From: a virus
Length of the DNA stretch: 59,731 bases
IMG/VR virus record: IMGVR_UViG_3300025121_000443
Span: 1-59,731 of that record
Direction: 5' to 3' (one strand)
The notes below the pieces were generated by a model. That model was not told where the DNA came from, did not search any database, and worked only from the letters and a program-made list of their open reading frames with translations. Numbering within the stretch: the first letter of the stretch is position 1; every line of letters begins with the position of its first letter. The translations under genes were made by a program, and so were the position numbers. This document shows positions 10,082 to 59,195 of the stretch, piece by piece.

Positions 10082-10085
10082 TAAT

Positions 10086-11546: not shown

Positions 11547-11566
11547 TCGGGGAGCAATTTAGTTTC

Positions 11567-11633: not shown

Positions 11634-11645
11634 TGGGGAGCAAAA

Positions 11646-35457: not shown

Positions 35458-36209
35458 TGGCAGAAAATAACATCATTCAGACAATGAACTATTTTGGAAA
35501 ATTTGACATAAATTTCTTAACCTCGAAGTCAGCTACAGTTGAATTTGTAGACGGTACATTATATCCTTCAATGACTATTGCGAAAATAGCCAGAGGATAC
35601 AAAGGAATTTATTCAAATGAAATTCCTGAAAATCCTCAAGAATTATTAGATGATGTAAAATCTACTAAACTTCAAACACCAATGGAAATGATAACATTTG
35701 TATTCTTACTCAAAAGGGTTTCAAGAGCATTTACTCATCAATTAGTTAGAACAAGACATGCTTCATATGTACAGGAAAGTATGAGATTCTTGGGTCATAA
35801 AAATACCTATGAAGTTCTTGTTACTAACAAAGTAAAGAACAATCCAGAAGCTTTTAGAGCATACATGGAAACTTGTGGAACAGCTATCTATGAGTATGAG
35901 CATTTATTGGATTCAGGAATGCCCTCAGAAGATGCTCGCGGTGTATTGCCAACAAATATTATGACCTCTATATTTGTTCACTTACCGCTTAGCAGTCTTC
36001 AACGAATATATACTCAAAGACTATGTTGTCAAGCCCAAGAAGAATGGTATCATGTAGTAAAACAATTCAAAGTATCTTTGAGAGCTGAATATGGCGATGA
36101 TGTAGACGAATGGTTATCCGCTCCGGTAGAACGGGGAGAACCCTGCGGATACAATGCAAGTTTTGACAGACCATGTGTCTGGAAAAATGGGAAGGAAGAG
36201 GAGAGCTAA
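35457..36209 (+). CDS. thyX: FAD-dependent thymidylate synthase (ThyX)
   Basis: 250 residues; TAATG start overlap. The ThyX motif is R-T-R-H-A-S-Y-V-Q-E-S-M-R, matching RHRxxSxxxxSxR except that the second His is Thr. Also seen: FLLKRVSRAFTHQLVR, GVLPTNIMTSIFVHLPLSSL and a C-terminal RLCCQAQEEWYHVVKQFK. It makes dTMP from dUMP with folate and FAD. The C-terminal CGYNASFDRPC adds a small cysteine pair. The His-to-Thr change is notable. Confidence 0.8.
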   Translation: MAENNIIQTMNYFGKFDINFLTSKSATVEFVDGTLYPSMTIAKIARGYKGIYSNEIPENPQELLDDVKSTKLQTPMEMITFVFLLKRVSRAFTHQLVRTRHASYVQESMRFLGHKNTYEVLVTNKVKNNPEAFRAYMETCGTAIYEYEHLLDSGMPSEDARGVLPTNIMTSIFVHLPLSSLQRIYTQRLCCQAQEEWYHVVKQFKVSLRAEYGDDVDEWLSAPVERGEPCGYNASFDRPCVWKNGKEEES

Positions 36210-36210
36210 C

Positions 36211-36417
36211 ATGTTAATTGGAAGATGTAAATCATGTGGAAGTACTGATCTTCAATTGGATCATTCTCTATTAGTATGCTCTACTTGTGGCAAAGAATTA
36301 AAGTTCTATCAAATAGAATTTATAGTTGTAGATGGTATTGTTCACGGAGAACCCTTTAGACATGATAATCCAGAAACTACTATTCAGCATAGATTACCTT
36401 TGATGGAGAGTGTATGA
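36211..36417 (+). CDS. Small zinc-ribbon protein
   Basis: 68 residues from ATG 36211 (GAAGAGGAGAG upstream). Two CxxC pairs (GRCKSCGST and VCSTCGKE) make a zinc ribbon followed by a beta-like tail. Function unknown; it may be a DNA- or RNA-binding regulator. It overlaps the next gene by 4 bases. Confidence 0.65.
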   Translation: MLIGRCKSCGSTDLQLDHSLLVCSTCGKELKFYQIEFIVVDGIVHGEPFRHDNPETTIQHRLPLMESV

Positions 36418-37076: not shown

Positions 37077-38093
37077 GTGTCTCAATATATAATAACTCTT
37101 GATGAATTAATGAGAGGTAGCGGTAGCACGATATCTCTAGACACTGAAACCACTGGTCTGTCGTGGTCAAATGATAAGCTAATTGGAGTAGGAACATACT
37201 GTAAAAATTTGAATGTCATGGGATATGTTCCCACACTTGACGATGTGGAAAGAAATAGAGTAAAATCTGCTCTAAAAGAACTTTCTAAAGATACAACAAT
37301 CATAATGCACAATGCAAAATTCGATCTCCACTTTATGGGATTAAACCCAACAAAGGGAGGTTGGAAAATTTTAGATACGACTGTTATGGTTCATCTTCTA
37401 GATTCCAGAAATAAAAAGTCTTTGAAAGAATCTGAGAATACTTTTCTTGGAACAGATAGCAAAAGACATCACGTAGCAGCAGCTCCAGCAAGAACCAAAA
37501 TTTGGGATTGGAGCCTGGATTTGGTTAGTGCATATTGTGCGAATGACTGCTTAGTAACCTATCAACTTGCGGAGGTTTTATATCCAAGACTGGAAGCTGA
37601 GGGTCTTCTGAAAGTATTTTGGAAAGAAATGAAATATCTGCGAGTTGTAAACGACATAGAAGAATATGGCGTGGTATTAGACGAAGATTTTGTTTACTCT
37701 GCTTCTGCAAAACTAGGAAGAAGTCTTGAGAAAATGGAAGAGGAACTCTATGATGCGTGTGGTAACACCTTCAACTGGAGAAGTCCTCAACAATTATCCA
37801 AAGCAATTTATGATGGACTTGGGATTCCAAGGCCAAAGAATCCATTTGCAGATGCTGACGGTATAGACCGTAGTAGATTTGCAGATTCCGGTAAATACAA
37901 ATCTACTTGCACGAGCACATTTCTTCTTACCGAGAAGGTTCATCATCCTCTTGGAGAATCCTCTTGGAGAACTTATAAGCTCTATGAGAGAATGTGCCAA
38001 ACTGCGAAAAAGTTTGCTGAAATATCTAGAGCTAAAAGACGAAAACAGAATACTTCATACAACATTCAACATGACTGGTACTCGTACAGGTAG
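37077..38093 (+). CDS. DNA polymerase I, 3'-5' exonuclease part (frame ends early)
   Basis: GTG 37077 after TTTGGAGGA. The 3'-5' exonuclease motifs are intact: SLDTETTGL (Exo I), HNAKFDLHFM (Exo II), YCANDCLVTYQL (Exo III). Coherent polymerase-type sequence continues to HHPLGE at about 37958; the rest is frame-shifted junk ending at 38093. A 13-bp exact tandem duplication (37946-37971) causes the shift. Removing one copy reads EKVHHPLGELISSMREC and joins smoothly to the polymerase domain in the next entry. May be a real split gene, a switch or an assembly error. Confidence 0.75.
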   Translation: MSQYIITLDELMRGSGSTISLDTETTGLSWSNDKLIGVGTYCKNLNVMGYVPTLDDVERNRVKSALKELSKDTTIIMHNAKFDLHFMGLNPTKGGWKILDTTVMVHLLDSRNKKSLKESENTFLGTDSKRHHVAAAPARTKIWDWSLDLVSAYCANDCLVTYQLAEVLYPRLEAEGLLKVFWKEMKYLRVVNDIEEYGVVLDEDFVYSASAKLGRSLEKMEEELYDACGNTFNWRSPQQLSKAIYDGLGIPRPKNPFADADGIDRSRFADSGKYKSTCTSTFLLTEKVHHPLGESSWRTYKLYERMCQTAKKFAEISRAKRRKQNTSYNIQHDWYSYR

Positions 38094-39051
38094 ATTGAGT
38101 TCATCTAAACCTAATTTGCAGAATGTAGCTTCTGCTACACGTGGTAGATTTACTCAATCTGTTTATACTGGTAGTGTTGAAAGAACAGACGAGTTCAATA
38201 TGCGCAGGGCAATCAAACCTCGTCCAGGACATGTCTTTGTAGCTGTAGACTATAAGCAAATGGAAATGAGAATGTTTGGTATACTTTCTCAAGATCCGTT
38301 TATGTTGAATGCGTTGCTTGCAGGTAAGGATGTTCACTTAGAAATAGCTTTGAAAGTTTGGGGTGATTGTGGCTATGATATGAATATGGTACATCGTGAG
38401 TGGTCTAAAACAATTACATTCGGATTAATTTATGGAATGACTCTTGGTAGTTTGCAGTATAAATTGAATATGACAAGAATGCAAGCTGCGAAAGTAACTG
38501 ATCAATATTGGGGAGAATTTCCTCGCATCAAACCCTGGATGAATGAAATCATAGAATCCTGTAAAATGATGGGATTCGTAAGATATTGGAGTGGAAGAAT
38601 ATGGAGAGAAGACAATCCTCTGGATATGTATAGAGGTTGTAATGCTCTAATTCAAGGTGGTTGTGCTGACTTTCTCTCTATAGCTGCGATAAAAGTTTAT
38701 GAATGGACGCTAAAACAACCTAGTCATCATATAATAAATTTAGTGCATGATGAAATTATAACGGAAGTTCCAGAAAATGATATCTTGAGATCTGCAAGAG
38801 TAATTTCAGAGCTTATGCAGGTTCCAGAAATATTTAACATTCCATTTGCTACAGATGCTAAAGTAGGAATATCTTATGGAGAAATGGTAAAGATAGACAA
38901 AGAATTATTATTAGATAATTCAATTGAAAGCATATCAATGGAAGAATTGTATGCTAGAGATAAAATATCTCATGATGCTAAAATAGCTGTTACTGAAGAA
39001 AAGGAAAATCCATTTGAAGAAGAACTAGAAGAAGAACTCTCAGAGGAGTAA
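37879..39051 (+). CDS. DNA polymerase I, polymerase domain (other frame)
   Basis: Family A motifs are all present: TGRLSSSKPNLQNV, VAVDYKQMEMR (motif A), REWSKTITFGLIYG (motif B/O-helix; Arg, Lys, Phe, Tyr in place) and LVHDEIITEVP (motif C). The frame is +1 relative to the exonuclease part because of the 13-bp duplication. The open frame begins at TTG 37879 but real homologous sequence starts only near 37960; a separate start could be ATG 37984 with a weakly spaced GGAGAA. The acidic C-terminus EEELEEELSEE is unusual for family A and may contact partners. Confidence 0.75.
   Translation: MQIPVNTNLLARAHFFLPRRFIILLENPLGELISSMRECAKLRKSLLKYLELKDENRILHTTFNMTGTRTGRLSSSKPNLQNVASATRGRFTQSVYTGSVERTDEFNMRRAIKPRPGHVFVAVDYKQMEMRMFGILSQDPFMLNALLAGKDVHLEIALKVWGDCGYDMNMVHREWSKTITFGLIYGMTLGSLQYKLNMTRMQAAKVTDQYWGEFPRIKPWMNEIIESCKMMGFVRYWSGRIWREDNPLDMYRGCNALIQGGCADFLSIAAIKVYEWTLKQPSHHIINLVHDEIITEVPENDILRSARVISELMQVPEIFNIPFATDAKVGISYGEMVKIDKELLLDNSIESISMEELYARDKISHDAKIAVTEEKENPFEEELEEELSEE
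37946..37971 (+). repeat. 13-bp exact tandem duplication in the DNA polymerase gene
   Basis: TCCTCTTGGAGAA occurs twice in a row (37946-37958, 37959-37971). Thirteen is not a multiple of 3, so it shifts the frame by +1. PLGE is encoded on both sides in the two frames, consistent with a recent duplication of a coding segment. Confidence 0.9.
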
Positions 39052-39054: not shown

Positions 39055-39234
39055 ATGACAGCATTCATTACAGTTTGTCCATTTTGCCTTACTCTGTACA
39101 TGATCGACTTCTATGAGGGAGAATTATGTCCAACTTGTGGGGTAGAAGAGCTTATATCTTATTACGAATATTCTTTGAGATTGAATACATCCTTTATGGA
39201 TGCGTTGGAAGAGGAGCGTGGAAATGACTCCTGA
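39055..39234 (+). CDS. Small zinc-ribbon protein before the primase
   Basis: 59 residues, SD GAGGAGTAAATT. VCPFCLT and LCPTCGV form a CxxC/CxxC zinc ribbon near the N-terminus; an acidic C-terminus ends EEERGNDS. It overlaps the primase start by 11 bases. It could be a primase or polymerase partner (inference from position). Confidence 0.65.
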   Translation: MTAFITVCPFCLTLYMIDFYEGELCPTCGVEELISYYEYSLRLNTSFMDALEEERGNDS

Positions 39235-41710
39235 AGCATCAATAGAACCGCTTTTGCTGGAAATATTTGGAGGAAATCCCTACCACGCAAGAGCAAATGA
39301 AAAGAATGGAGATATTTATTATGCTCCTGTAGAAGTTCCACTTACTCTTGAGCATTTAAAAGAACACGTTGAAGGAATAAGTTGTTTAGGATCTTATCAA
39401 TTAGCTCAGGGTTCAGATACTGTAAAATGGCTAGGGTGGGACATTGACGATAAAGACAATGAAAATGCCAGAAAAACGGTAAAGAAGATTGTAAAGCACT
39501 TAGGATCAATACCACATTGTGTAGAGTTTTCAGGAGGAAAAGGATATCATGTTTTAGTATTCCTGGAATCCCCGTTACCAGCTGTAAAGGCTAAGAAGAT
39601 CGTTGATTGGGTACGAGAAAAAGAAGGCTTTGCTGTTACCGGAGATTCTCATGTAGAATGCTTTCCTAAACAAGACCAATTAACTAAGATAAGATCTAAA
39701 GGAAATCTACTCAAAATACCGTGTGGACTGCATCCTAGAACACATAATCGTTCAGTATTTGTAGACCCCAATAATGGTTGGGAACATGGTGCATTAGAAG
39801 ATCCTTCCATAGTTTTAGCTCAAAGGGCAGATGTAAATGATGTTCTTGACATTGCTTCAGAGGGACCTTCAGTAGATGTACAGCTTGTAAATTTACTATC
39901 TCAATATTGGGAAAGCGGAAAAAGACATGATCTATCCCTCTATCTTAGTGGATTTCTGGCACACGAATCTTGGGGAATTGATCAGACTAAGAAATTGATC
40001 GAGGATATATGTCATGCTGTTGGAGATGAAGAAGTATACAATAGACTTCAAACTGTAGAAACCACATTTATAAAGCATAAAGAAGGAAAGAGTATTCGCG
40101 GTAGACAGGGATTAGGAGAAATACTACCGATTTCTACTCTTCAGAAGCTAACTGAACTTGTGGCTACAATCAGAGCTCCAGATACAGTTGCACAAATAGA
40201 TGATATTAGATACTCTAAAGGAAGAGCAAAATTAGATAGCGTTCGTCTAGCAAGTAATACTATTTGGAGTATTATGAATGACGAAGGATGCAAAATATTC
40301 CAGACAGATCAGGCTGTTGCATATTGGTATAACGCTGAAGATCATTCTGTAACTGAGGAAGCTTCTGAACCTTGGAAGGCTTTGCTAAATAAATTGTTTG
40401 GACTTAATCCACAAGATTCCTTTAGTAAACTAATTTTTCAAGAACTAAGATTGCGTATAGTAAGAGATGCACCTATTGTTCCCATACAAAACAGAACATA
40501 TTGGAGTGAAAGTCCACCTAGACTATATGTAAATCTTGGAGGTCCTGAAGTATATATTTTGGATGGAAAGACGATAGAAAAAGGATACAATGGTGAATGT
40601 GGTCACATGTTCATTACAAATCAGAATGCTGTATATTCTATTCCTGATTTTGATGCACCGCCTGTAGATGCTTGGGATTATCTGGTAAATGACCTATCGT
40701 TTACCGTTTCTGCTGATGCACCTGCAAAACCAGAGGAACAAAGAGAGTTATTGAAGGCTTGGCTACTTGCATTTTTCTTCCAAGAGCTTATGCCAACGAA
40801 ACCAATTCTTGCCATGTTAGGGCAACCTGGAAGCGGTAAGACCACAGCCATTCGTAGGATTTTACGAATATTTGAAAATCCAGACTCGGATGTATTAGGT
40901 GTACCTACCGATAAACAGGATGCTTTTAGAGCCAGTATTGCTTCTCATAGACTTCTGGTACTGGATAACTTAGAGAAGTCTGGTGCTTACTGGATGGTTG
41001 ATATGCTCAACAAATTAGCAACAGGAAATAATATTGAATTACGAGAACTTTACAAAACGAATTCTAAATTTACTATTGTTCCCAAATGTTTTATAGCGTG
41101 TACAGCCGTCAACATGCCATTCAGCGATGAAACATTATTTTCTAGATTGCTTGTGTTAGAAATGGATCAATTAGCAGAACCTATTGCAGAGCATATTCTG
41201 CAAAGAAAAATAAAGGAATTCGGTCCAGCTATCTGGGCAGATTTACTTACGAAACTAAATCACATAATTCAATCATTGCTTCTAAACAAAAATGTAAAAG
41301 CTCCGACAAAGAGTAGGCTCGTAGACTTTACCGTTTTCTGTGCAAGGATAAGATATTGCTCGGTAGTAGACGGAGATAAACTAAATCTTGGATTGCTATC
41401 TATGGTAGACGCTCAGTTGAGACAACTAAAAGAGAGTTCTCAAGCTATAGTTCTTATAGAGGAGTGGTTATCTATAAAACCGCAAGAAGCAGCAGAGTGG
41501 AAAACATTCCAAGAACTCTATATTGTGTTGCAAACAATGGCTCAAAGCAGGAGAATGGACTTTAAGTGGAAGAATGTTACAGGGTTGTCTAGACATTTGA
41601 GTACATTACAGGATAGACTTCAAAAAGACTTTGGGGCAGAATTTGAGGATTACTACTCTGCTCAGCAAGGAAAGGATGTTACACGTATAAGATTCCGAAC
41701 AATTATGTAG
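39224..41710 (+). CDS. Archaeo-eukaryotic-type primase fused to AAA+ helicase
   Basis: 828 residues from ATG 39224 (GAGGAGCG upstream). N-terminal primase: WLGWDIDDKD (catalytic DxD) and FSGGKGYHVLVFLE (the SxGKGYH motif), typical of AEP primases. Residues ~520-680 hold a AAA+/SF3-like helicase: MLGQPGSGKTT (Walker A), LLVLDNLEK (Walker B) and CFIACTAVN (sensor-like). It probably primes and unwinds at replication. Such fusions are common replicases of phages and plasmids. Confidence 0.8.
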   Translation: MTPEASIEPLLLEIFGGNPYHARANEKNGDIYYAPVEVPLTLEHLKEHVEGISCLGSYQLAQGSDTVKWLGWDIDDKDNENARKTVKKIVKHLGSIPHCVEFSGGKGYHVLVFLESPLPAVKAKKIVDWVREKEGFAVTGDSHVECFPKQDQLTKIRSKGNLLKIPCGLHPRTHNRSVFVDPNNGWEHGALEDPSIVLAQRADVNDVLDIASEGPSVDVQLVNLLSQYWESGKRHDLSLYLSGFLAHESWGIDQTKKLIEDICHAVGDEEVYNRLQTVETTFIKHKEGKSIRGRQGLGEILPISTLQKLTELVATIRAPDTVAQIDDIRYSKGRAKLDSVRLASNTIWSIMNDEGCKIFQTDQAVAYWYNAEDHSVTEEASEPWKALLNKLFGLNPQDSFSKLIFQELRLRIVRDAPIVPIQNRTYWSESPPRLYVNLGGPEVYILDGKTIEKGYNGECGHMFITNQNAVYSIPDFDAPPVDAWDYLVNDLSFTVSADAPAKPEEQRELLKAWLLAFFFQELMPTKPILAMLGQPGSGKTTAIRRILRIFENPDSDVLGVPTDKQDAFRASIASHRLLVLDNLEKSGAYWMVDMLNKLATGNNIELRELYKTNSKFTIVPKCFIACTAVNMPFSDETLFSRLLVLEMDQLAEPIAEHILQRKIKEFGPAIWADLLTKLNHIIQSLLLNKNVKAPTKSRLVDFTVFCARIRYCSVVDGDKLNLGLLSMVDAQLRQLKESSQAIVLIEEWLSIKPQEAAEWKTFQELYIVLQTMAQSRRMDFKWKNVTGLSRHLSTLQDRLQKDFGAEFEDYYSAQQGKDVTRIRFRTIM

Positions 41711-41724
41711 AATAGGTTCTAGGT

Positions 41725-41797
41725 TTATTTTTGCTAAAATTGCAAGGTATAAAATAACCTATATTAGTTTAAACCGCTTTAAAATGCTTTATTTTAG
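41725..41797 (+). repeat. 73-bp intergenic repeat, copy A
   Basis: About 93 percent identical by eye to 46867-46940 (one indel and three or four substitutions), and related to 8027-8110. Core: AGGTATAAAATAACCTAT and CGCTTTAAAATGCTTTAT, bounded by GCTAAAAT and ATTTTAGC in inverted orientation. No ORF covers it. It could be a promoter, processing site or binding site. Confidence 0.8.
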
Positions 41798-41874
41798 CCC
41801 CATAAATTCATAAAAAGGTATAAACTAAGCGTAAACGTGCAAAATATATTCAAAGTTCATTTTTTATCTGGCAC

Positions 41875-41903
41875 TTGTAATATGAATAAAAAGAACCTAT
41901 AAT
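41875..41903 (+). promoter_or_regulatory. Sigma70-like promoter
   Basis: TTGTAA (41875-41880), 17-bp spacer, TATAAT (41898-41903). Same layout as at 26897. It drives the small-gene/tRNA/ligase group. Confidence 0.8.
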
Positions 41904-41930
41904 TAATGTAGTAATGGGGTAAAATGTAGA

Positions 41931-41944
41931 AATTTTCGATATAC
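41931..41944 (+). promoter_or_regulatory. Leader box AATTTTCGATATAC
   Basis: This 14-base sequence lies 28 bases after the -10 and before the SD. Copies in reverse orientation follow leftward promoters (51976-51989, 56121-56134), with partial ones at 49497-49505 and 57436-57449. It may be an operator or an RNA element. Confidence 0.6.
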
Positions 41945-41956
41945 ACAGGGAGATAG

Positions 41957-42268
41957 ATGGTAAGATACGAAGATTACGAAGATTACGAAGATATATACAG
42001 AAGACTTAGTCAATGGGCAGATGAAGTAACCTCTTCTATGGAATATGTTATATCCTCAGCTTCCTCTGGAATGCAAAGATGGATACAGGAAGCTCTTCCT
42101 TCTCCCTATAATCTGAAAGAGCACAGAAAGTATTATCAAGAGTATCTCAAGTGGTTGCTAAATCACTTTGGTACATATCCTATTATAAAGGTAAAGAGGA
42201 TAGAGAAGAGGATCTTTCTCAGTATAAATACACCTCTATGCAGATCTCCTCCGGTAACTTTATTCTAG
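41957..42268 (+). CDS. Small protein with EDY repeats, unknown function
   Basis: 103 residues; SD GGGAGATAG. Starts with a 9-bp coding repeat (GAAGATTAC) giving EDYEDYED. The C-terminal third may be in the wrong frame: from about 42190 another frame (KGKEDREEDLSQYKY) looks more protein-like and ends at 42312. I do not recognise a family. Confidence 0.5.
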   Translation: MVRYEDYEDYEDIYRRLSQWADEVTSSMEYVISSASSGMQRWIQEALPSPYNLKEHRKYYQEYLKWLLNHFGTYPIIKVKRIEKRIFLSINTPLCRSPPVTLF

Positions 42269-42377
42269 GGATAATCAAATTCCTTAGTTATAGGCTTACA
42301 TCTATAAAGTAGAAAATTTAAATGATAATCGGCTATTGAGAGTTTATCTACTACCCCTTCTAAACTCAACAGATAGC

Positions 42378-42402
42378 TCCGGAAACCGTAACCGGAATTT
42401 TT
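42378..42402 (+). terminator. Weak hairpin with T-run
   Basis: TCCGG / CCGGA (5-bp stem, 9-base loop) followed by ATTTTT before the next SD. Weak; may only reduce readthrough. Confidence 0.3.
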
Positions 42403-42413
42403 GGGAGATTATT

Positions 42414-42590
42414 ATGCCATACAAAATTAGAAAGAATGGAGAGGAGTGGGAAGTATACAATCCAGATACTGGAAAAGTATATGGAAAGCATAAAACAAAG
42501 AAGAGTGCTGAAGATCAAGTTGCTGCTCTTTATGTAAATGCCAACCCCGAAAATGAAAATCGTAAATTAAGAATTAGAAGGAAGCTATGA
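42414..42590 (+). CDS. Small basic protein
   Basis: 58 residues from ATG 42414 (GGGAGA upstream). IRKNGEEWEVYNPDTGKVYGKHKTKKSAEDQVAALY has the look of a compact phage DNA- or RNA-binding-like basic protein found beside structural or replication genes. Function unknown. It overlaps the next gene by 4 bases. Confidence 0.55.
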   Translation: MPYKIRKNGEEWEVYNPDTGKVYGKHKTKKSAEDQVAALYVNANPENENRKLRIRRKL

Positions 42591-42865
42591 GCTCAGACGA
42601 AGAAATACTATCTCAAAGAGACGAAATTGTCAAAAGATTAAAAACTAATGATGGTTATGGTATAGGGATCTCAGCTTTCCTAGCTGCAGAAATTCTAGTC
42701 AAAGCAGAAAAGATAGAATCTATTTTAGACGAAAACAAAGAAATAAAATTGGATAGACGGAAATCATCTGCTAGTCATTTTGACGATATTAGTATGAGAG
42801 AATTTGCTAATGAGCATCCTGAAACATGTACTGCTAAGACTTGCCCTTATAGCTCAAATGGATAG
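42587..42865 (+). CDS. Small hypothetical protein whose end overlaps a tRNA
   Basis: 92 residues with central helices (IGISAFLAAEILVKAEKIESILDENKEIK). The last eight codons (CPYSSNG and stop) are inside the tRNA-Arg sequence. Starts with an ATGA-type overlap. Function unknown. Confidence 0.5.
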   Translation: MSSDEEILSQRDEIVKRLKTNDGYGIGISAFLAAEILVKAEKIESILDENKEIKLDRRKSSASHFDDISMREFANEHPETCTAKTCPYSSNG

Positions 42866-42916
42866 AGCAACAGCCTTCTAAGTTGTAGGTTCAGAGTTCG
42901 AATCTCTGTAAGGGTG
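42843..42916 (+). tRNA. tRNA-Arg (anticodon TCT)
   Basis: A full cloverleaf can be drawn. The acceptor arm is GCCCTTA/TAAGGGT, with one G-T pair. The D arm is GCTC/GAGC. The anticodon arm is ACAGC/GTTGT with loop CTTCTAA (TCT at 34-36). The T arm is CAGAG/CTCTG with TTCGAAT. Discriminator G at 42916; CCA is not encoded. It reads AGA codons, which are frequent in this AT-rich genome (many Arg residues here are AGA), so it may help phage translation. Confidence 0.9.
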
Positions 42917-42919
42917 CTA

Positions 42920-42978
42920 CGGTAGAACAGAGTGTTGATCTGTGCATGGGTGAGTACCAGTCCTGCAACCCACTACCG
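42920..42978 (+). ncRNA. tRNA-like three-stem structure without D arm (uncertain)
   Basis: CGGTAG (42920-42925) pairs with CTACCG (42973-42978). ACAGA/TCTGT encloses a 7-base loop GTGTTGA with T at position 33 and a would-be GTT anticodon. TGGGT/ACCCA closes a 16-base loop. There is no D arm and no TTC T-loop, so it is not a canonical tRNA. It may be a decayed tRNA-Asn or other structured RNA. Confidence 0.35.
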
Positions 42979-43003
42979 AATTTACTTGCATCAAAAGGAG
43001 CAT

Positions 43004-43438
43004 ATGAAAATAAATCAAAAAGTAAAAGAAAAGATAGAGGAAATTCTAACAGACAGAAATGTTCGAAAGCAAGCTAAGAGCTTTGCCCTGGAAAGCAATT
43101 TGGAAGACAAAGAAAAATTTGTTCAAGAATTCATGCATATGTACAAATGTAAAAAGATTATCGGAAGATATGTTGTAAAGTTCACAGCATCAGATATGGA
43201 CGAAAATGAAAATATAGCCGTAAATTTGTTGGGATCTATTCTTAATTCTGTGTTAGTTATAACGACCAATGATAATCCTGACTATTCCTTTAGAGCAGTT
43301 GAAACATTGGGAAAAATTTGTTTTGACATTACTAAAGAATGTGGTACAGCTTCTGATCAATTTGAGCTGATGGCTCTAATGACTAAGTATAACCTGAATG
43401 AGGAAACAGAAGAATATGGAGAAGACGAAGATGGATAG
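43004..43438 (+). CDS. Hypothetical protein, helical with acidic end
   Basis: 144 residues from ATG 43004 (AAAGGAGCAT). Mostly helical, with acidic C-terminus (EETEEYGEDEDG) overlapping the next gene. The start MKINQKVKEKIEEIL is basic/acidic mixed. No recognised family. Confidence 0.5.
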   Translation: MKINQKVKEKIEEILTDRNVRKQAKSFALESNLEDKEKFVQEFMHMYKCKKIIGRYVVKFTASDMDENENIAVNLLGSILNSVLVITTNDNPDYSFRAVETLGKICFDITKECGTASDQFELMALMTKYNLNEETEEYGEDEDG

Positions 43439-44069
43439 ATTAATTCAAGAAACAATTATGCACATAAAATCTAGCATAGAAGGAAGAATGTGCGACGAAG
43501 CTAACGATAATTTGTATCTTGGAAGAGCTATCCTCGAAGCAACAGATGGAAATCATTTGGAAATTGGAAGTTTGTTTGGTGGTTCTGCCATATTTGCAGC
43601 TCTGCTAAAGAAAGCTCTAGGATTTAAATGTCATGTGTATGCTATCGATCCGTTCTCTGGATATTATCTAGATACCGTAAATGATCAGGGTCAGAAGATT
43701 GGAGGACTTGCTGATCCCTTTTCTACCGTTCCTGTTTCTTTGGAAACGGCTATGCGTAATGCTGAAAAATTTGGAGTAAGTGATAGAATAACATTTATTC
43801 AAGCATTATCCTATCCCTTTCCAGAGCAATTAAAATACGAAACTTTTGCTACAGCTTACATAGACGGAGATCATTGGAATCTAGCCCCTACATTGGATTG
43901 GTTATCTGTAAAAGATATTACTACTAAGTTGGTTATATTTGACAATAATGATGGAAGAATTGGGGTAGATACTGCGTGTAAAGTAGCAGCAAGCTCTAAG
44001 GGGTGGAGAGAATACTGGAATCATGGTATTACATATATAGTTAGAAAGGATAGTTGGTATGATGTCTAA
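43431..44069 (+). CDS. Class I methyltransferase-like protein (type 24)
   Basis: 213 residues from ATG 43431 (GGAGAAGACG upstream). HLEIGSLFGGSAIFAALL (motif I), VYAIDPFSGYY, FATAYIDGDHW and VIFDNND follow a glucose- or sugar-type methyltransferase pattern (Methyltransf_24). Earlier in-frame ATGs (43398, 43416) overlap the upstream gene more. Substrate unknown. Confidence 0.6.
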   Translation: MDRLIQETIMHIKSSIEGRMCDEANDNLYLGRAILEATDGNHLEIGSLFGGSAIFAALLKKALGFKCHVYAIDPFSGYYLDTVNDQGQKIGGLADPFSTVPVSLETAMRNAEKFGVSDRITFIQALSYPFPEQLKYETFATAYIDGDHWNLAPTLDWLSVKDITTKLVIFDNNDGRIGVDTACKVAASSKGWREYWNHGITYIVRKDSWYDV

Positions 44070-44610
44070 AGTAATTGATTTCGGATTAGATCCAAATAAT
44101 ATTGTTTGTTTCGACACAGAAACGACAGGTCTTGACGGCTCAGCAGAAATTTGCCAGCTGGCAATCGTTAATTTTGATGAAACAGTTGTCTTCAGTAAAT
44201 TAATAAAACCGCAGGAAAAGATATCTAAAGAAGTATCTCTAATTCATGGAGTAACCAATGAAATGGTAGCTTACGAAAAAGACATAAAATACTGGTGGAG
44301 TTTCCTGAATAAACAATTCTTCACCAGTAAACTTGTTCTCGGATATAATGTTATGTATGATATCAGAATGTTATTTCAATCCATAACAAGATTTGAGAAA
44401 AATATTTATTTTTCTCCATTTATGGTAATTGACGTTATGACCCTCGTATCTAATCTTAGTGCAGATGGTAAATGGATGTCTCTAGGATCTGCCTGTAAGA
44501 AATATGAAATAGAAGAACCAGATAATCTTAAATATCATAATGCAGAATTTGATGCAATAATGACAATGAGACTTTTCAAGAAAATTTCACAAGCACAAAT
44601 AGATTTTTAG
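44062..44610 (+). CDS. DEDDh exonuclease (DnaQ-like)
   Basis: ~182 residues (ATG at 44059 or 44062). VCFDTETTGL (DxE), LGYNVMYDIRML (Asp) and KYHNAEFDAIMTMRLF (His...Asp) make the DEDDh set of DnaQ/epsilon-type 3'-5' exonucleases. It may proofread or trim DNA or RNA ends and would complement a polymerase whose own exonuclease part is separated. The start overlaps the previous gene. Confidence 0.8.
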   Translation: MSKVIDFGLDPNNIVCFDTETTGLDGSAEICQLAIVNFDETVVFSKLIKPQEKISKEVSLIHGVTNEMVAYEKDIKYWWSFLNKQFFTSKLVLGYNVMYDIRMLFQSITRFEKNIYFSPFMVIDVMTLVSNLSADGKWMSLGSACKKYEIEEPDNLKYHNAEFDAIMTMRLFKKISQAQIDF

Positions 44611-44627
44611 TCCTAAAGGAGGATAAA

Positions 44628-45455
44628 ATGAGCAAAGAGTTAATTCAACAAACTAAGCAAGCAATGAAAGATCTCAAGTATGGAGATCCAATTCCAAACA
44701 ATAACATAGATACAATGTTCCAAGTAAAATATGACGGATGGTTTAGTCATATCACAATTAAAGACGGCTTTGCTACCGTAGTCACTTCCGGTGGAGAAGT
44801 TCGTAAGAGATTCGATATAGATGTTCCTGATGCCATTGTTCTTGCAGAATGGATGTATGGTACGAACAGTAGTCAAACTCATCCGTTGAAAGACAAATTT
44901 ATAATTCATGATGTACTTAGTCTAAATGGATATAATCTTAAGAATGACATGTATATAGCAAGAATATCATCTGCAGTACAACTAACATCTAATCCCCACG
45001 ATTATCCCAATTTTCCATTCGTTTTAATCCCCTCCCATTTTCCAGAGCAATTTGAGGATATCTGGAAAACAGAAGTTTTAGGTGCTGGTGAAGAAGGTGT
45101 GGTATTCAAACATGCTTATGCAAAATTCGGTGAAGACACCATGTATCGCATGAAAAGAGAATTCACTATGGACTATATTGTGGTAGGATTCAAAGAAGGT
45201 ACTAAGCGATTAGAAGGAACTTTGGGAGCTCTTGAAGGTGGTTTATATTACAAAGGAAATCTTATGAGAATTCTGTCAGTAGGTGGTGGATTTACCGATT
45301 CTGAACGAGAAGAAATATGGGAAAATAAACCAAAATATCTTGGTATGGTATTTGAAGCATCTGGTAAAGCTCTTTTCGAATCTGGTGCTTTGAGACATCC
45401 AGCTTTTCAGAGATTCCGCACAGACAAAATTCCACAAGAGTGTATTCTGTCATGA
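44628..45455 (+). CDS. ATP-dependent polynucleotide ligase
   Basis: 275 residues; SD AAGGAGGATAA. Motif I is VKYDGWF (KxDG; Lys is adenylated), motif IIIa-like FIIHDVLSL, motif IV EEGVVFKH and motif V YRMKRE. Length is typical of compact phage ATP-dependent DNA ligases; RNA ligase is an alternative. It seals nicks in replication and recombination. Confidence 0.75.
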   Translation: MSKELIQQTKQAMKDLKYGDPIPNNNIDTMFQVKYDGWFSHITIKDGFATVVTSGGEVRKRFDIDVPDAIVLAEWMYGTNSSQTHPLKDKFIIHDVLSLNGYNLKNDMYIARISSAVQLTSNPHDYPNFPFVLIPSHFPEQFEDIWKTEVLGAGEEGVVFKHAYAKFGEDTMYRMKREFTMDYIVVGFKEGTKRLEGTLGALEGGLYYKGNLMRILSVGGGFTDSEREEIWENKPKYLGMVFEASGKALFESGALRHPAFQRFRTDKIPQECILS

Positions 45456-46282
45456 CGAAGTGGATAGGAAGAACTACTGGAGATCATAGGGTAGTGTGTT
45501 ATGATATCAAGAAAGTTTATAGTTGTCCTGGAGCAGCTGCATTAGACAATGGAGTAAGAGAGAATGAAGTTATTGCTTGCTGCAATAGATATATAAAATC
45601 TACTTTCAATAATATTCAATTTGATTGGTATGCACAATACAAAATTGAAAATATAGATAATCTAAGTATTCATCCGCATAAACCCAAACCAATCGTTGAA
45701 GTTGAATATGTAAAATCTCATAGAGAAAGACTTCATGGAAATGGTATGACACTTCAAGAGCATAGAGGTAAGATTCCTAGAATTCATAGACTCGCTACCG
45801 AAGTTCTAAAAGACGAAAGATATAATAATGAAGAAATGTTCGTTTCTGATTTTCTAAATTTACTCGAAGCAGAAGCTCAAAGACAGGGATTTTCTCTTAA
45901 TTCAAAACCCCATGCTTTTGTAAAACATTTGAAAACCCATGAAAAAGTTTATAAAACTATTCTTAACATGGAGTTAGGAACTAAATACCATGCTAAGAAC
46001 AGAAGACATTCTCATACAATAAAAGTAACGTTTATTCCTGGAATAACCAAAGAGCAGATCTATGTATATGATGATGAAGAATCCTATCTAAGAAGAGCAT
46101 CTGGAAAAGCAAAATTAATTGTGAGATTAAATGATATGAGAGTATACGGAAGTCTCTTATCTGCTGCTAGAATTGCTAAAATATCCAGAGAAAGAATTCT
46201 ATGGTGCTGTCTTGATGACGTTACTTCTATATTCAGTAGAGGAAGAGAGGTTCAATTTGCATTTGGAAGATACAAGAAATGA
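45452..46282 (+). CDS. Protein with two NUMOD-like DNA-binding modules
   Basis: 276 residues from ATG 45452 (ATGA overlap). The N-terminal VVCYDIKKVYSCPGAAALDNGVR and C-terminal MRVYGSLLSAARIAKISRERI segments have the helix-turn-helix layout of NUMOD modules, which normally flank homing endonucleases. No HNH or GIY-YIG nuclease motif lies between them; the middle is basic (RHSHTIKVTFIPG). It may be a regulator derived from a homing endonuclease. Confidence 0.5.
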   Translation: MTKWIGRTTGDHRVVCYDIKKVYSCPGAAALDNGVRENEVIACCNRYIKSTFNNIQFDWYAQYKIENIDNLSIHPHKPKPIVEVEYVKSHRERLHGNGMTLQEHRGKIPRIHRLATEVLKDERYNNEEMFVSDFLNLLEAEAQRQGFSLNSKPHAFVKHLKTHEKVYKTILNMELGTKYHAKNRRHSHTIKVTFIPGITKEQIYVYDDEESYLRRASGKAKLIVRLNDMRVYGSLLSAARIAKISRERILWCCLDDVTSIFSRGREVQFAFGRYKK

Positions 46283-46290
46283 GGTGTGGT

Positions 46291-46446
46291 ATGTCTAAAA
46301 GACTCAGGTGTGGTATGATACAAAGACCGGCTCATACGACAAGGTGGGTAAAATTATGCTTCAATTGCAGAAAGGAATTCTCAAATCCGATACATGGTTT
46401 GTGTCCTTTCTGCAACTCGTATTATTGGGGAAAAATTTATAAATGA
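46291..46446 (+). CDS. Small zinc-ribbon protein
   Basis: 51 residues; LCFNCRKEF and LCPFCNS make a CxxC/CxxC zinc ribbon. Its start codon sits in GAGGTGTGGTATG, so one copy of the GTGTGGTAT motif contains the start, and another copy lies inside the gene (46308). Confidence 0.6.
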   Translation: MSKRLRCGMIQRPAHTTRWVKLCFNCRKEFSNPIHGLCPFCNSYYWGKIYK

Positions 46447-46456
46447 GGAGTGTGGT

Positions 46457-46735
46457 ATGATTCAGTTACTTTCTCAAAATCTTGCTCTGGATCTAGACAA
46501 CGTCAATAGTATAGAGTTCAGTCCGGTGGGATTCGGTAAAATGGAAATAAACTTCAAAATCGGTAATCCTATTACCGTGTATCGTACAGATCCAGCTTTT
46601 GAGGATCTGGAAAACTTCCTGCAAGGAACTATGGAAGACATAGAAATCAAAGAAGTAGAAGGAGAAGAAAATGTACATCTGTACGAAGTGCGGAGAAAGA
46701 ACAGACTTTCCGGTAAAACGTATGCGAAGCTCTAG
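46457..46735 (+). CDS. Small acidic protein, unknown function
   Basis: 92 residues from ATG 46457 (GAGGAGTGTGGT upstream, again the GTGTGGTAT motif). Beta-rich middle and an acidic end (EDIEIKEVEGEEN). The last 65 bases overlap the following zinc-ribbon gene. Family not recognised. Confidence 0.5.
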   Translation: MIQLLSQNLALDLDNVNSIEFSPVGFGKMEINFKIGNPITVYRTDPAFEDLENFLQGTMEDIEIKEVEGEENVHLYEVRRKNRLSGKTYAKL

Positions 46736-46856
46736 AATTGAAAAGGATGAAAACGGTAACAGCATCATCGTATCTTATGAAATCATCATATGCAAAGAGT
46801 GTAATTCAAAGACAACGCACAATAAACCTAACATTAGAAAGTGGAAGCGTGACTAA
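46671..46856 (+). CDS. Small zinc-ribbon protein
   Basis: 61 residues; AAGGAGAAGAAA upstream of ATG 46671. YICTKCGER near the start and ICKECNS later form a zinc ribbon with a basic tail (KWKRD). It overlaps the upstream gene by 65 bases in another frame. Confidence 0.6.
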   Translation: MYICTKCGERTDFPVKRMRSSRIEKDENGNSIIVSYEIIICKECNSKTTHNKPNIRKWKRD

Positions 46857-46866
46857 AATTCTAGTA

Positions 46867-46940
46867 TTATTTTTGCTAAAATTTGCAAGGTATAAAATAA
46901 CCTATATTGTTTTAAAACGCTTTAAAATGCTTTATTTTAG
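46867..46940 (+). repeat. 73-bp intergenic repeat, copy B
   Basis: Matches 41725-41797 with one inserted T and three or four changes. Just after it, AGGCGTAA/TTACGCCT (46939-46956) forms a perfect 8-bp stem. Confidence 0.8.
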
Positions 46941-47002
46941 GCGTAATTTTACGCCTGATAACGTGTTTTGGCATATATAACCAGTAAACGCTAAAGAAAA
47001 TT

Positions 47003-47596
47003 ATGGGAACATACAGTTCAGAAAAATTCAAACTATTGCGGGATAAAAGAGCAGCAAGGCTCAGAATATTGAGCTGCTTCTATGACTACTCGCCCATCTT
47101 CGTGAAGAGCAATGGAAATAATCGTCATTTTACGAAAGCTGAAGTAGCAGTTGTTCAGTCTTGGAATCACTTTCAAGATGTAATAGATTGGATGCATGAA
47201 GAGGAGATTATATCCTCAAAGTATGATTACCGAAATTTGCATTTGGATCTCTGGTATCTAAAAAAAGAACTCTCTCCCAAGTATGGTAAGAAAGTTCAGG
47301 AAACATGTAGCACAGGTGCTGAAAAATTACTGCTTCATGTGGTAATTCAAGCCTTGCTGGATGTTCATTCTAAAAGACCTTGCGACGTGGCGATATGGGG
47401 TACAGATCTATCTCCCGACTCGGTGTATTGTACCCCTACCGCTCATGTCTGTTCTCAAAATGCAGAGAGATTTTTGAAAAGTCTTGACGCTAATTTTGAG
47501 GAATTTATTGGTGTATCTCGTGGATGTATTTATGATATATTGCATAGAATAAAAAAAGATCCCAATTATTATTTGGGATCTTTATGCACAGACTAA
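47003..47596 (+). CDS. Hypothetical protein at the end of the rightward operon
   Basis: 197 residues, mostly helical with Cys residues; no recognised motif. Weak SD (CTAAAGAAAATT). Its last codons overlap the convergent terminator. Unknown function. Confidence 0.5.
   Translation: MGTYSSEKFKLLRDKRAARLRILSCFYDYSPIFVKSNGNNRHFTKAEVAVVQSWNHFQDVIDWMHEEEIISSKYDYRNLHLDLWYLKKELSPKYGKKVQETCSTGAEKLLLHVVIQALLDVHSKRPCDVAIWGTDLSPDSVYCTPTAHVCSQNAERFLKSLDANFEEFIGVSRGCIYDILHRIKKDPNYYLGSLCTD
47551..47583. terminator. Convergent terminator between the two operons
   Basis: AAAGATCCCAA / TTGGGATCTTT with a 7-base loop. Read leftward it is followed by seven T's, a classic rho-independent terminator for the leftward operon. 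It lies inside the end of the rightward gene. Confidence 0.8.
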
Positions 47597-47919
47597 TCTT
47601 TTATATATTTTTCTAAAACATTATCTTCTTCCAATTTTACGCCTATTGCTAGTCTATGATAGATTAGTTTATCTTCACATGTTTTGGCTATTTCATACAT
47701 TTCCTCCGGCGAGTTTCTAAATTGCAAATATTTTTCGATTGCATTACTGAGCTCAGCATAGCAGGTTTCTGCTACTAATTCCACTTCAGTTGGCTGTACT
47801 GTTATTTCCGGTGTTGGCTCTGGTGTGTGCTCTATACGGACTGGTGTAGGGTTTCGATTTTCTGTTGCGCATCCTGTTACCATAATTGCAAAAATTATGA
47901 GTGACAGGATTTTTTTCAT
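47593..47919 (-). CDS. Predicted lipoprotein
   Basis: 108 residues. KKILSLIIFAIMVTGC is a lipoprotein signal with a Cys after VTG; the Pro/Thr-rich linker follows (PTPVRIEHTPEPTPEITVQP). It may act at the cell surface, for example in superinfection exclusion or lysis (outer-membrane spanin is possible if the host is diderm). Function is inferred only. Confidence 0.6.
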   Translation of the reverse strand: MKKILSLIIFAIMVTGCATENRNPTPVRIEHTPEPTPEITVQPTEVELVAETCYAELSNAIEKYLQFRNSPEEMYEIAKTCEDKLIYHRLAIGVKLEEDNVLEKYIKD

Positions 47920-48194
47920 CCCATAAACATCCTAATCCTGTCAGCCTGTTCCTGCAATTTGGGTGGAAGCACAACTTGGTATCTAACGTCATTTTGCAGA
48001 ACTTCTTTCCATTTATAGACGTATTCATCACCACGATCAAAAGTATTTGGCTGACCCAATACAGCAATTTTCACCATGCGACAAATACCTTTACGGTTAT
48101 CAATTACTTCAGCTGTCCTGCCGTCTTTGAAGAGTACGGTAGCACCTTTCTTCACCTCATTGGGTTCAATAGTTTTTACTTCTTTATTATCCAT
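47916..48194 (-). CDS. Small basic protein, unknown function
   Basis: 92 residues with VLFKDGRTAEVIDNRKGICRMVKI, a beta-barrel-like pattern. Overlaps both neighbours by a few bases. Unknown role. Confidence 0.5.
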   Translation of the reverse strand: MDNKEVKTIEPNEVKKGATVLFKDGRTAEVIDNRKGICRMVKIAVLGQPNTFDRGDEYVYKWKEVLQNDVRYQVVLPPKLQEQADRIRMFMG

Positions 48195-48444
48195 TTTCTT
48201 CCTCCTGAGATTGTCTGTAAGATTCGTCTATTGGATCTTCTGTTATTTGAATAACTACATCTTTGGTCATTGTAACCTTTGTTCCAAATAAATCTGCTAA
48301 TTGAGTAGCTATGTGTAGCAAAAAAGCATTCGTTTGACCAGTCAATGGAAGCATAACTTTCACGGTATCATTCGCTAAATAGATCAATTTCTGATTATCT
48401 AACCTCGTGTGGTAAATCACTTTGATAGGAAGTCTTTCACTCAT
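48187..48444 (-). CDS. Hypothetical protein
   Basis: 85 residues, beta-rich start (IKVIYHTRLDNQKLIYLAND) and an acidic end (ESYRQSQEEENG). Overlaps neighbours by 4 and 8 bases. No recognised family. Confidence 0.5.
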   Translation of the reverse strand: MSERLPIKVIYHTRLDNQKLIYLANDTVKVMLPLTGQTNAFLLHIATQLADLFGTKVTMTKDVVIQITEDPIDESYRQSQEEENG

Positions 48445-48602
48445 GAATCCTCCAATTTCTTTAGCAAAGATTCTGCCTTTTCCAGATCAGATGTAACAGC
48501 TTGAATATCCTCTTCAGGACATACTTTCAAAACTCTTTTTGCAAATTTGATGAACTTTTGAAGTTCAGCTTTGTCTAGATCTTCCAGAGTTACTTTACTC
48601 AT
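48441..48602 (-). CDS. Tiny helical protein
   Basis: 53 residues (ATG at 48602, SD GAGGA). The sequence is helical and charged (LEDLDKAELQKFIKFAK) with one Cys. It overlaps both neighbours by 4 bases (TCAT). Unknown function. Confidence 0.55.
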   Translation of the reverse strand: MSKVTLEDLDKAELQKFIKFAKRVLKVCPEEDIQAVTSDLEKAESLLKKLEDS

Positions 48603-51028: not shown

Positions 51029-51542
51029 CTAGAGTATTCCTAGATAAGAGTTGAAAGATCTGCAGCCAGAATTGTTTTTAGGGTAGAAATATTTGAAGAC
51101 CTTGATACCATCGTCTCCATATTCTGCTATCAATCTTTTGATGGACGAAACTTCTGCAATACCCTTCGTCCAATAATCTTTTGATAGACGAAAATTCTGC
51201 AACACCCTTCGTCCAATATCTGTGATCATCTGACATTTCGAATGTCCAGTCATGTGCTCTAAGCTCGTCACAAAGTCTTGCCAATCCAGCAGAATCTTTG
51301 AAATCGCAAATAACCACATATTCAGATTCTATTGCTTCTGGATTATCGGTAATTGTTAGAGCTGGAATTATTTGCAAAGGACACTCAGGATCTCGCTCTA
51401 AATCTGGGTCTACCGTTATTTTTCCTGGATACTTTACTGAACAAATGTTAGCCATTGACTGTAACATCTTATTACATTTACTGCAAGTTTCCGGAAATTT
51501 ATCTACATCCTTTACACTTTTTCTTACTACAAGTTCAATCAT
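51029..51542 (-). pseudogene. Frame-interrupted gene with a 43-bp tandem duplication
   Basis: The start (ATG 51542) encodes Cys-containing sequence (CSKCNKMLQSM) to YWTKGVAEFSSIKRL, then leaves its frame after a 43-bp duplication. Removing one copy gives YWTKGVAEFSSIKRLIAEYGDDGIKVFKYFYPKN and an intact end at 51029. The reading frame as given stops at 51078 with an extra YCRSFVHQKIDSR tail. Function unknown. It starts inside the 39-residue gene's stop. Confidence 0.7.
51133..51218. repeat. 43-bp imperfect tandem duplication
   Basis: Units 51133-51175 and 51176-51218 differ at 3 of 43 positions. The mismatches argue against a simple recent assembly duplication, unless two variants were merged. 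Confidence 0.9.
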
Positions 51543-53240: not shown

Positions 53241-53536
53241 TCATCATCCTCATCTTCCGGCAAAATATCATCCTCTGGAATCCAGTCAGGTGGCGGTAAC
53301 GGTACGAGCAGGTCTCCTGACAAAAGATTACGCTTAAGGTCTTCTCCTTCTTCAAACCAGAAAAGAAATTGAATATCATCATTTGCCAAGTGTTCCACCC
53401 TACGAAAATACTCTACTGCTTCTTCTCTACTTTTGAATATCATTTCTTTGGATTTGTTTTTCTTGTCCATAAGAAATTCTATTTGCTTGAACGGAAGTAC
53501 CTGCAAGCATGGCGTTCTACCTACGTATCCACTCAT
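53237..53536 (-). CDS. Hypothetical protein with acidic tail
   Basis: 99 residues; SD AAAGGAGAT supports ATG 53536 over an internal ATG. The tail PEDDILPEDEDDE is acidic. Overlaps the upstream zinc-binding gene by 20 bases. Confidence 0.5.
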   Translation of the reverse strand: MSGYVGRTPCLQVLPFKQIEFLMDKKNKSKEMIFKSREEAVEYFRRVEHLANDDIQFLFWFEEGEDLKRNLLSGDLLVPLPPPDWIPEDDILPEDEDDE

Positions 53537-53741
53537 ATTTTATCTCCTTTCCACAAAATGGACAAAATTTATATGATGCTGTAGCTGATCTTGTTGCTGA
53601 ATACATAATTTGCTCGTTGCATTTAGTTATGATATCTTCATACGTTTCAGGATTCTTTTTCCATACGCACTTTTCTTTTGCACATTCTCTAGTACGCATA
53701 TCATGTGCAAATTGAAGCAATCTTCCTCTAGCTCTTAGCAT
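53517..53741 (-). CDS. Small zinc-binding protein
   Basis: 74 residues with cysteines RECAKEKCVWK and FCPFCGKE (CxxC), probably a zinc ribbon. SD AGGAGGATAA upstream of the ATG. Confidence 0.6.
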   Translation of the reverse strand: MLRARGRLLQFAHDMRTRECAKEKCVWKKNPETYEDIITKCNEQIMYSATRSATASYKFCPFCGKEIKYEWIRR

Positions 53742-56183: not shown

Positions 56184-56872
56184 TATTCACTTTTGTTATT
56201 TTAATCTTCATTTTGTAAGAATTCTACTCTTGACAGACTCTTGTTGAATCAAGTTTTGTGCTACTCCTCCCGCGAAGCGGGGGTGTTGAGGGTGGCAGCG
56301 ACGATGGTGTTGGCATAAAACTTGCAACTAGAGAGAATTTTGACATGTACTGTACCCTATTTTAATAGATTCGTAAACGTTGCGTGTAGTTTAATATTTT
56401 TTGGCTATACGCAGAACCATGTACTATACCCCACCATTATGATCTTAGAGTGTTACTATTTGGTTACTGACGTTCATTTTTGGAATAAAAAATGGTCAAA
56501 AATGAAGAAAAAAGTGTGGGAAAGGGTATCTGGAGTGAAGGGCTACCATGTACTATACCCTAATAAATCCATTAGTCTACCCAAATCGAAAAGTTTTTAT
56601 ATATAGTGTTTTTTTGTGGGTTTTTAAAATAAAAAGTTTTCGAAAAAAGTAGACATACGGATTTATTAGGGTATAGTACATGGTATTGCGCATAGCCATG
56701 CTCAAAGTCCGTCTACTTTTTGCTCAAAAAAAGTTAAGCTACACGCAGAAATCAGTCTTTTCGTACAACCTTCTGTATAATGTTGGAGTTTTCGTTCATT
56801 TTTCACCCAAAACTCCGTTCATTATCTCCATATTCGTCGTCTTTTTAGACATAAATACCATCAATTTTGCCC
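56184..56872. other. Non-coding region with inverted and direct repeats (possible origin)
   Basis: 689 bases without a convincing gene. A 26-bp perfect inverted repeat (56545-56570 and 56659-56684) continues inward with GTCTAC and TCGAAAA matches. Direct copies of CATGTACTrTACCC lie near 56344, 56419 and 56547. A 10-bp stem TTCATTTTTG/CAAAAATGAA occurs at about 56471-56504. TATAAT at 56776 has no good -35. AT-rich structure and iterons suggest a replication origin or regulatory centre. Confidence 0.5.
56545..56684. repeat. 26-bp inverted repeat spanning ~140 bp
   Basis: Arms start ACCATGTACT and end with the reverse complement TAGTACATGGT; the arms also include a shared TACTATACCC core. The stem can extend past the perfect part. 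No transposase or flanking target duplication is seen. Confidence 0.9.
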
Positions 56873-58965: not shown

Positions 58966-59195
58966 GAAGTGTGGTATCGCGCGAAGAGAAGTGTGGTATT
59001 TCACAAAGATGCTCTCGGAGATTCCTGGAGAGAATCATAGTGATTCGTGTTTAGGGTAGAATCACAATGATTCGCTTATACATGATTCATGGTGATTCGC
59101 AGGTTTATGTGAAACCTTGCTTTTTGATTCGTTAGAACGTATACTGTATTTGCAGGTAATTATGCCTAGCACATTCAAAAATTAGGAGGTTCAAA
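58966..59195 (+). promoter_or_regulatory. Regulatory cassette upstream of the 59196 gene
   Basis: Paired GTGTGGTAT (58969, 58991), three GAWTCANNNTGATTCG sites (59032, 59059, 59084) and the promoter at 59117. No ORF. Confidence 0.6.
59117..59145 (+). promoter_or_regulatory. Rightward promoter with GATTCG in spacer
   Basis: TTGCTT (59117-59122), 17-bp spacer containing GATTCG (59126-59131), TATACT (59140-59145). Confidence 0.75.

Follow-up and report, generated by a model that had tools for sequence, protein, structure and literature searches.

A repeated two-box intergenic element as a candidate phage-specific promoter or activator site in an uncultivated siphovirus-like virus

The virus record IMGVR_UViG_3300025121_000443, whose entire 59,731 bases constitute the window analysed here, carries three copies of a non-coding element in which a 16-base pair (bp) box with dyad ends (box 1, AGGT-N8-ACCT) is followed at a constant distance of 31 bp by the word TTTTAG (box 2). 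All three copies, termed A, B and C, reside in gaps of more than 100 bp between co-directional genes and are oriented with transcription (3/3), and a separate promoter-like site is located downstream of one of them. Tentatively, and with less than even confidence, we favour the view that the element is a phage-specific promoter or activator site of fixed geometry at the start of transcription units.

From this architecture we infer recognition by a protein, a transcription start in the vicinity of the element and its use beyond the early phase. The element would act as double-stranded DNA, in which box 1, the 31-bp spacer and box 2 form a promoter module that is read jointly by the host RNA polymerase and a factor made by the phage, either an activator bound to box 1 or an altered sigma factor. 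In such an arrangement the phage factor would occupy box 1 and the polymerase the region of box 2, and the output would be middle or late transcripts covering the gene group at 41.9-46.9 kb, the gene starting at 47003 and the genes from 8122 onward, with the 41.9 kb group receiving an additional ordinary early promoter at 41875-41903.

Three intergenic copies and their shared two-box pattern

Copy A (41717-41797, plus strand) is located behind a primase-like gene (39200-41710) and copy B (46859-46940, plus strand) between the genes at 46671-46856 and 47003. Their likeness extends over 82 columns from 41717 and 46859, 76 of which are identical (93%), with 94.6% identity over the 74 columns of the core (41725-41797 versus 46867-46940, one gap). 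A blast-type search with the core of A (41725-41800) recovers B at 95% identity with an expectation value (E) of 4.4e-28, and the score of the A-B alignment is matched by none of 500 dinucleotide shuffles. The original prediction of two near-identical copies around the 41.9-46.9 kb group is thus borne out far above chance, and the genome-wide search that it had proposed returns only the places of A and B for 41725-41800 at E≤10. The copies start 6 bases (A) and 2 bases (B) past the stop codon of the preceding gene and both end at TTTTAG. Their alignment does not extend past the repeat into the genes before it, which speaks against their origin as duplicated gene ends. In box 1 of A (AGGTATAAAATAACCT, 41745-41760, plus strand), the dyad ends AGGT-N8-ACCT are followed after 31 bp by box 2 (41792-41797), and the same register places box 1 of B at 46888-46903 and its box 2 at 46935-46940. 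An inverted repeat, AGGCGTAA-TT-TTACGCCT (46939-46956), overlaps the end of B and is not present in A.

Since the spacer is nearly identical between A and B, these two copies by themselves could reflect a recent duplication, and the main rival to a promoter accordingly regards them as recent copies of one intergenic stretch, serving as linker for homologous exchange that shuffles the 41.9-46.9 kb group between phages. This proposal, which we consider unlikely but which need not exclude a promoter, is consistent with the 93% identity including the free spacer (76/82), the direct orientation of the copies at both edges of one group and the different gene content of this group in relatives. It also finds parallels in the deletions and gene gain between repeats described for Cluster O mycobacteriophages in a part of PMC4351075 and in the module-separating repeats of Campylobacter group II phages described in a part of PMC4546147. 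However, four genes of the group are found in equal order behind the primase gene in the related genome G002 (those at 42336, 44059, 44628 and 45440), which argues against the group as a whole being a recent foreign island, and copy C is located 33 kb away and has retained the boxes only. The group bounded by A and B also contains a tRNA-Arg (anticodon TCT, 42843-42917). The low guanine-cytosine (GC) content of A (27.6%) and B (23%), compared to 37% in the window, the position of A behind a primase gene and the apparent near-tandem decamers CGCTTTAAAATGCTTTATTTT noticed by inspection in both copies would also suit an AT-rich replication origin or iteron site where an initiator melts the DNA. 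We regard this function as most improbable in light of the absence of the decamers in C, the dispersal of the three copies and the lack of an identified initiator, with the GC skew, which turns with gene direction, providing no independent mark of an origin.

Copy C (8032-8084, plus strand) is diverged and precedes the gene at 8122-9177, which had been called a connector and for which there is no match in PHROG or Pfam. The stretch that C has in common with A and B is AGGTATtAAATAACCT at 8032-8047, where its box 1 (AGGTATTAAATAACCT, plus strand) matches the 16-bp box in 15 of 16 positions, and its box 2 follows 31 bp later at 8079-8084, overlapped by the inverted repeat TATTTTTAGCC ... GGCTAAAATA (8076-8105). 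The resulting consensus of the three copies is AGGTATwAAATAACCT, 31 bp, TTTTAG, with box 1 being the longest word common to all of them. The length of the spacer is thus kept whereas its letters in C are unrelated to those in A and B, a combination that would suit a geometry imposed by protein-DNA contacts. If A and C are placed in an ungapped register, TTTTAGCCC is found at exactly equal distance, a run of 9 bases which occurs in 0.1% of shuffles, or in 0.26% if a shift by one base is permitted, with the total number of A-C matches being reached by 11%. The equivalent register of B and C contains a run of 6 (4.2% of shuffles) and a total reached by 4.1%. The two-box register was also retained in a MAFFT alignment of the three copies, whose inputs were pre-cut to start at matching places. 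We thus count C as a copy because its boxes and their spacing are identical despite a marginal plain alignment. In this respect, the weaker third copy described in the original prediction is upheld by boxes at identical spacing, whereas by plain similarity it remains marginal.

The same register bears on the view that the element has no function, with A and B as chance recent duplication and C as chance match. Although such a view would agree with the marginal alignment of C and with the absence of the element from all relatives searched, we find it highly improbable, given the shared boxes and spacing of C (p 0.001 for the 9-base run given box 1) and the start of A and B 6 and 2 bases past a stop codon. 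When one position of box 1 was left free and all others had to match, a search of the window identified three places, and two mismatches added only one more that lacks box 2; a degenerate word at 41816 contains three mismatches. This word, the dyad ends of box 1 and its status as longest common word would be compatible with an operator at which a dimeric phage repressor or silencer lowers nearby transcription in the manner of mycobacteriophage stoperators. We consider an operator quite unlikely, since in A about 115 bp separate box 1 from the early promoter that follows it, which is far for simple blocking, and since a fixed distance to box 2 would be unnecessary. Moreover, no repressor or integrase passed among the proteins scanned, with small frames covered in part, and the one weak match to an anti-repressor profile (E 0.0083) is found in the exonuclease gene.

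Coding capacity, RNA structure and host-type promoters

The original prediction had taken conservation without coding as a sign of function, a claim that holds for the boxes and the spacing in A, B and C, in a pattern chosen post hoc. One frame is open throughout A and B, where B is part of a mechanical 80-codon frame (46738-46980), but coding was rejected since the copies differ by a 1-base indel followed by three base changes that each alter the codon touched, and since C carries an in-frame stop (TAA). A second claim, of a structured signal with inverted GCTAAAAT/ATTTTAGC ends, is not supported. The ends are exact in A (41733/41791), whereas B ends in ATTTTAGG, and in C the two words appear in opposite order and form a local palindrome. 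With z-scores of -0.79 (A), -0.82 (B) and -0.13 (C), the folds are no better than those of shuffles, which together with the restriction of exact ends to A makes a conserved RNA hairpin unlikely, and the element is thus probably not of this kind.

A structured RNA signal, such as a terminator, processing site or leader derived from a transcribed intergenic stretch, could nevertheless draw on the inverted ends in A and on the palindromes beside box 2 in B and C. When extended by the palindrome behind it, B (46867-46965) folds with a z-score of -2.28, better than 195 of 200 shuffles with the other 5 being as good, and in a consensus fold of the three copies 4 of 9 pairs are changed on both sides. 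However, this consensus reaches only -2.99 kcal/mol, its outer stem consists of A-U or G-U pairs wherever it is paired, and the elements alone fold like shuffles. Rfam at gathering scores identified only tRNA in the whole window, a permissive Rfam search of 41600-47100 gave no match on A or B, and no terminator in either copy emerged from a scan of 41000-48500. An RNA signal therefore appears very unlikely.

The host-type (sigma-70-like) promoter that accompanies copy A, TTGTAA-17-TATAAT, is found on the plus strand at 41875-41903, 77 bp downstream of the repeat. It is one of six sites in the window that match TTGTAA-17-TATAnT with no or one mismatch (26897+, 41875+, 49535-, 56155-, 57800- and 58103+); at up to two mismatches the count of 18 equals chance (18.9). 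Some spacer letters are common within this set, with TGA near the -35 and GAAG before the -10 in three cases, and weaker promoter-like sites are found at 26811, 52010 and 59117. The last of these, TTGCTT-17-TATACT, faces the record's right end and is contained in the first copy of a 57-bp repeat (59100-59156 and 59673-59729, 79% ungapped identity). A sigma-70 scan, which in the scanned region counted 23 promoters, below the 29.2 of shuffles, revealed no plus-strand -35/-10 pair at 16-18 bp inside A or B. In a profile of the early promoter type, built from six of its seven best places, the gap of C scores 5.7 compared to 20-37 for these seven. Since the gaps of B and C thus contain no strong promoter of the early type of the phage, as judged from the profile scan and for B also from the sigma-70 scan, another start signal would be useful at both sites. 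A word resembling a MotA box (AATGCTTTA) that A and B have in common was set aside, as no properly placed -10 is seen and C lacks the word.

Related genomes and the points that weigh against a promoter

The gene content of the window, which encodes a Dit-like tail gene, a helicase, an exonuclease, a Sak4-like protein, a DNA polymerase, a primase and an ATP-dependent ligase, characterizes it as the genome of a tailed, siphovirus-like phage, in which a very long gene preceding the Dit-like gene is taken as tape measure on the basis of its length and position. The record is classed as linear, hence possibly a fragment, is some 15 kb shorter than the related genome G002 and is probably incomplete. 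A 24.7-kb contig (G001) originates from the same virus (99.96% identity with window positions 1-24026), whereas G002 (75,103 bases with a 127-base end repeat) is a colinear relative with a protein identity of about 27-69% across matched genes, and G003, G004 and G006-G009 are additional or partial relatives. Annotated phages gave at most remote matches for the three window proteins tried, and we found no close cultured relative; neither a bait search of the viral_contigs collection with the ligase nor an alignment of the primase to genome_contigs recovered a relative. The DNA polymerase is split into two overlapping frames (37077-38093 and 37879-39051), both matched by a single frame in each of G002, G003 and G004, reflecting a sequencing error, a real frameshift or recoding. 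Near-tandem duplications are found inside the long tape-measure-type gene (15674-15876 and 15997-16290) and in the leftward region (43 bp, 51132-51217), which also contains nested inverted repeats (56402-56698) with arms of up to 57 nucleotides that are 84% complementary.

At the junction equivalent to A, one of four relatives contains a host-type promoter (G003, TTGCCA-17-TATAAT) that is absent in G002, G004 and L015. At the junction of C this is the case in one of six (G006, TTGTAA-17-TATAAT at 7668), with none in G002, G007, G008, L022 and G009, where the gap is small or absent. In some relatives both junctions thus look like transcription starts, with other signals.

Several observations weigh against a promoter or activator site, the first of which concern the status of C. 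In local alignments, the A-C score is reached by 33 and the B-C score by 10 of 500 shuffles, and C receives 2.9 bits (E 8) from a profile built on the other two copies, which ranks eight places higher, including A and B themselves read on the other strand. Matching of the whole element does not single out C. On the other side, the two-box pattern is rare, which speaks in favour of the element: in simulated sequences of the size of the window (59.7 kb, order-3 composition), AGGTATNAAATAACCT-N24..38-TTTTAG did not occur in any of 4000 cases and box 1 alone in one, and genome_contigs contains two places, with other spacers. The design of the pattern, however, followed the inspection of C, and such figures should not be taken for unbiased probabilities.

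A further set of observations concerns the promoter signals themselves. Candidate -10 words are TATTTT beside box 2 and TATAAA/TATTAA inside box 1, yet A and B on one side and C on the other share no consistent -10 register, as TATTTT near box 2 stands one base off in C. At B, two promoter-like sites of the minus strand share bases with the end of the repeat, and in G002 the genes at the junctions of A and C have virtually no space between them. A rival to the two-box pattern as shared feature is the word GCTAAAAT, which is found in 14 copies on both strands, nine of them on the plus strand, including four in the gaps of A, B, C and at 11547-11645. Through this word, the latter gap aligns to A better than any of 500 shuffles and is thus closer to A than is C (0/500 versus 33/500), and its alignments to B and C are each reached by 3/500. 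The distance of GCTAAAAT to other shared letters varies among the four gaps. Because the -10 register is unclear, because start and factor are only proposed and because GCTAAAAT competes, our confidence in a promoter or activator site stays below even.

The gap at 11547-11645 is located between a conserved virion-region protein (10053-11546, no PHROG match, a weak YCF48/BNR-like domain in the second half) and the gene at 11646, and it contains a long hairpin that is unrelated to the repeat. The loop of this hairpin, GCTCCCC, is the complement of GGGGAGC, a word that occurs twice, once just past the upstream stop and once where the ribosome-binding site of gene 11646 is presumed to be. An equivalent architecture with other letters is found in G006 (GGAGAGT / ACTCTCC / GGAGAGT) and G002 (GGGGAG / CTCCCC / GGGGAG), and thus in three of the five records examined, including the window, but by the same test not in G008 or G009. 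The arrangement resembles a covarying RNA pseudoknot or a translation switch that follows a gene of the virion region.

The remaining points against a promoter or activator site come from searches for the element and its regulator elsewhere. A profile of the three copies identified no further copy with E<3 in the fetched sequences of G002, G003, G004 and G006-G009, of which G004, G007 and G008 extend not quite to the last base. No sigma factor was found in G000, G002 or G003, and neither was a match to the Mor/C family (PF08765), with the window record being probably incomplete, while a search for Ogr gave only a weak match in G002, below the cut-off and with an internal stop. Two small frames (36154-36417 and 53517-53741) gave weak zinc-ribbon matches that stay under the cut-off and would be initial candidates for the phage factor. 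A search for RNA polymerase was uninformative as it gave no match in any control either.

Searched for exact 24-mers and 23-mers taken from the repeat, viral_contigs gave no match, and blastn with the A region as query recovered nothing among annotated phages. The two-box pattern appears at two places of genome_contigs (L041 and L042) with spacers of 35 and 28 and no further likeness by eye, and in viral_contigs in C itself in G001 and in one other virus represented by two contigs. These contigs (L038 and L039, identical over 4752 bases and hence one case) carry box 1, 31 bp and TTTTAG on the minus strand in a gap between two rightward frames, with box 1 being part of a terminator-like hairpin, as judged by eye. 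They were rejected as relatives in the absence of a tblastx match to the window, which together with strand and hairpin led us to treat the pattern as chance, although the spacer is still 31 bp. A hairpin-rich non-coding repeat of G002, located in reverse-complement coordinates at the B-equivalent place (67129-67237) and between leftward genes (427-535), was unconvincing as an orthologue of B (29/500 shuffles).

Comparison with known phage elements and implications

A promoter or activator site of the proposed kind would be similar in kind to the late promoters of the P2 Ogr type. In the account of the Mu promoter Pm given in a part of PMC4287176, the Mor dyad is located at -51 to -36, centred at -43.5, in a promoter that has no -35 and absolutely needs Mor, and four late promoters contain a related dyad to which the C protein of Mu binds. 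The present element would resemble these promoters in a dyad upstream of a -10 in the absence of a -35, although here the ends are AGGT-N8-ACCT and the -10 is only a candidate. It differs in its letters, in the unclear -10, in the centre of box 1, which by our estimate would precede a start beside box 2 by about 49 bp, and in the lack of a Mor/C relative in the three records searched. The PeSLs of T4-like phages, promoter-terminator motifs combining an early promoter with a stem-loop that are said to mediate gene shuffling in a part of PMC4503421, are equally intergenic repeated regulatory motifs, whereas A and B contain no terminator stem-loop and the early promoter is located 77 bp outside of the repeat, at A only.

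Intergenic repeats that are specific to one genome have precedents in phages, as described in parts of PMC4351075, PMC3203893 and PMC4546147. Among these, the 17-bp dyad repeats of Cluster O and the SAS/ESAS of Cluster K are genome-specific, often intergenic and of unproven function, and dyad repeats have been proposed as binding sites of dimeric regulators (PMC4351075 and PMC3203893, parts of both). The present element shares their genome specificity and intergenic location, but while they occur in 11-34 short copies per genome, it is a longer two-box element in three copies, and the three places of box 1 also contrast with the many copies of Cluster A stoperators and the Cluster O repeat. 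Intergenic repeats of up to 75 bp are also present in G003 (4436-4510, 5788-5825 and 10817-10891); these contain a plain TTGCNN-17-TATAAT promoter, unlike A, B and C.

Collectively, the element constitutes a further case of the phage-genome-specific intergenic repeats already known, without a match in blastn or Rfam, and it illustrates how fixed spacing is able to back a third copy that plain similarity had left doubtful. That an unrecognised transcription factor of this uncultivated siphovirus-like lineage, either an activator or a sigma-like protein, reads box 1, 31 bp and box 2 together as its site appears somewhat unlikely at this stage. In that case, middle or late genes would be turned on through machinery that has no known relatives. 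The promoter or activator site that we favour would, if true, define three candidate non-early start sites in a phage group for which no close cultured relative was found, and the 53-bp two-box DNA would offer a bait for fishing its regulator.

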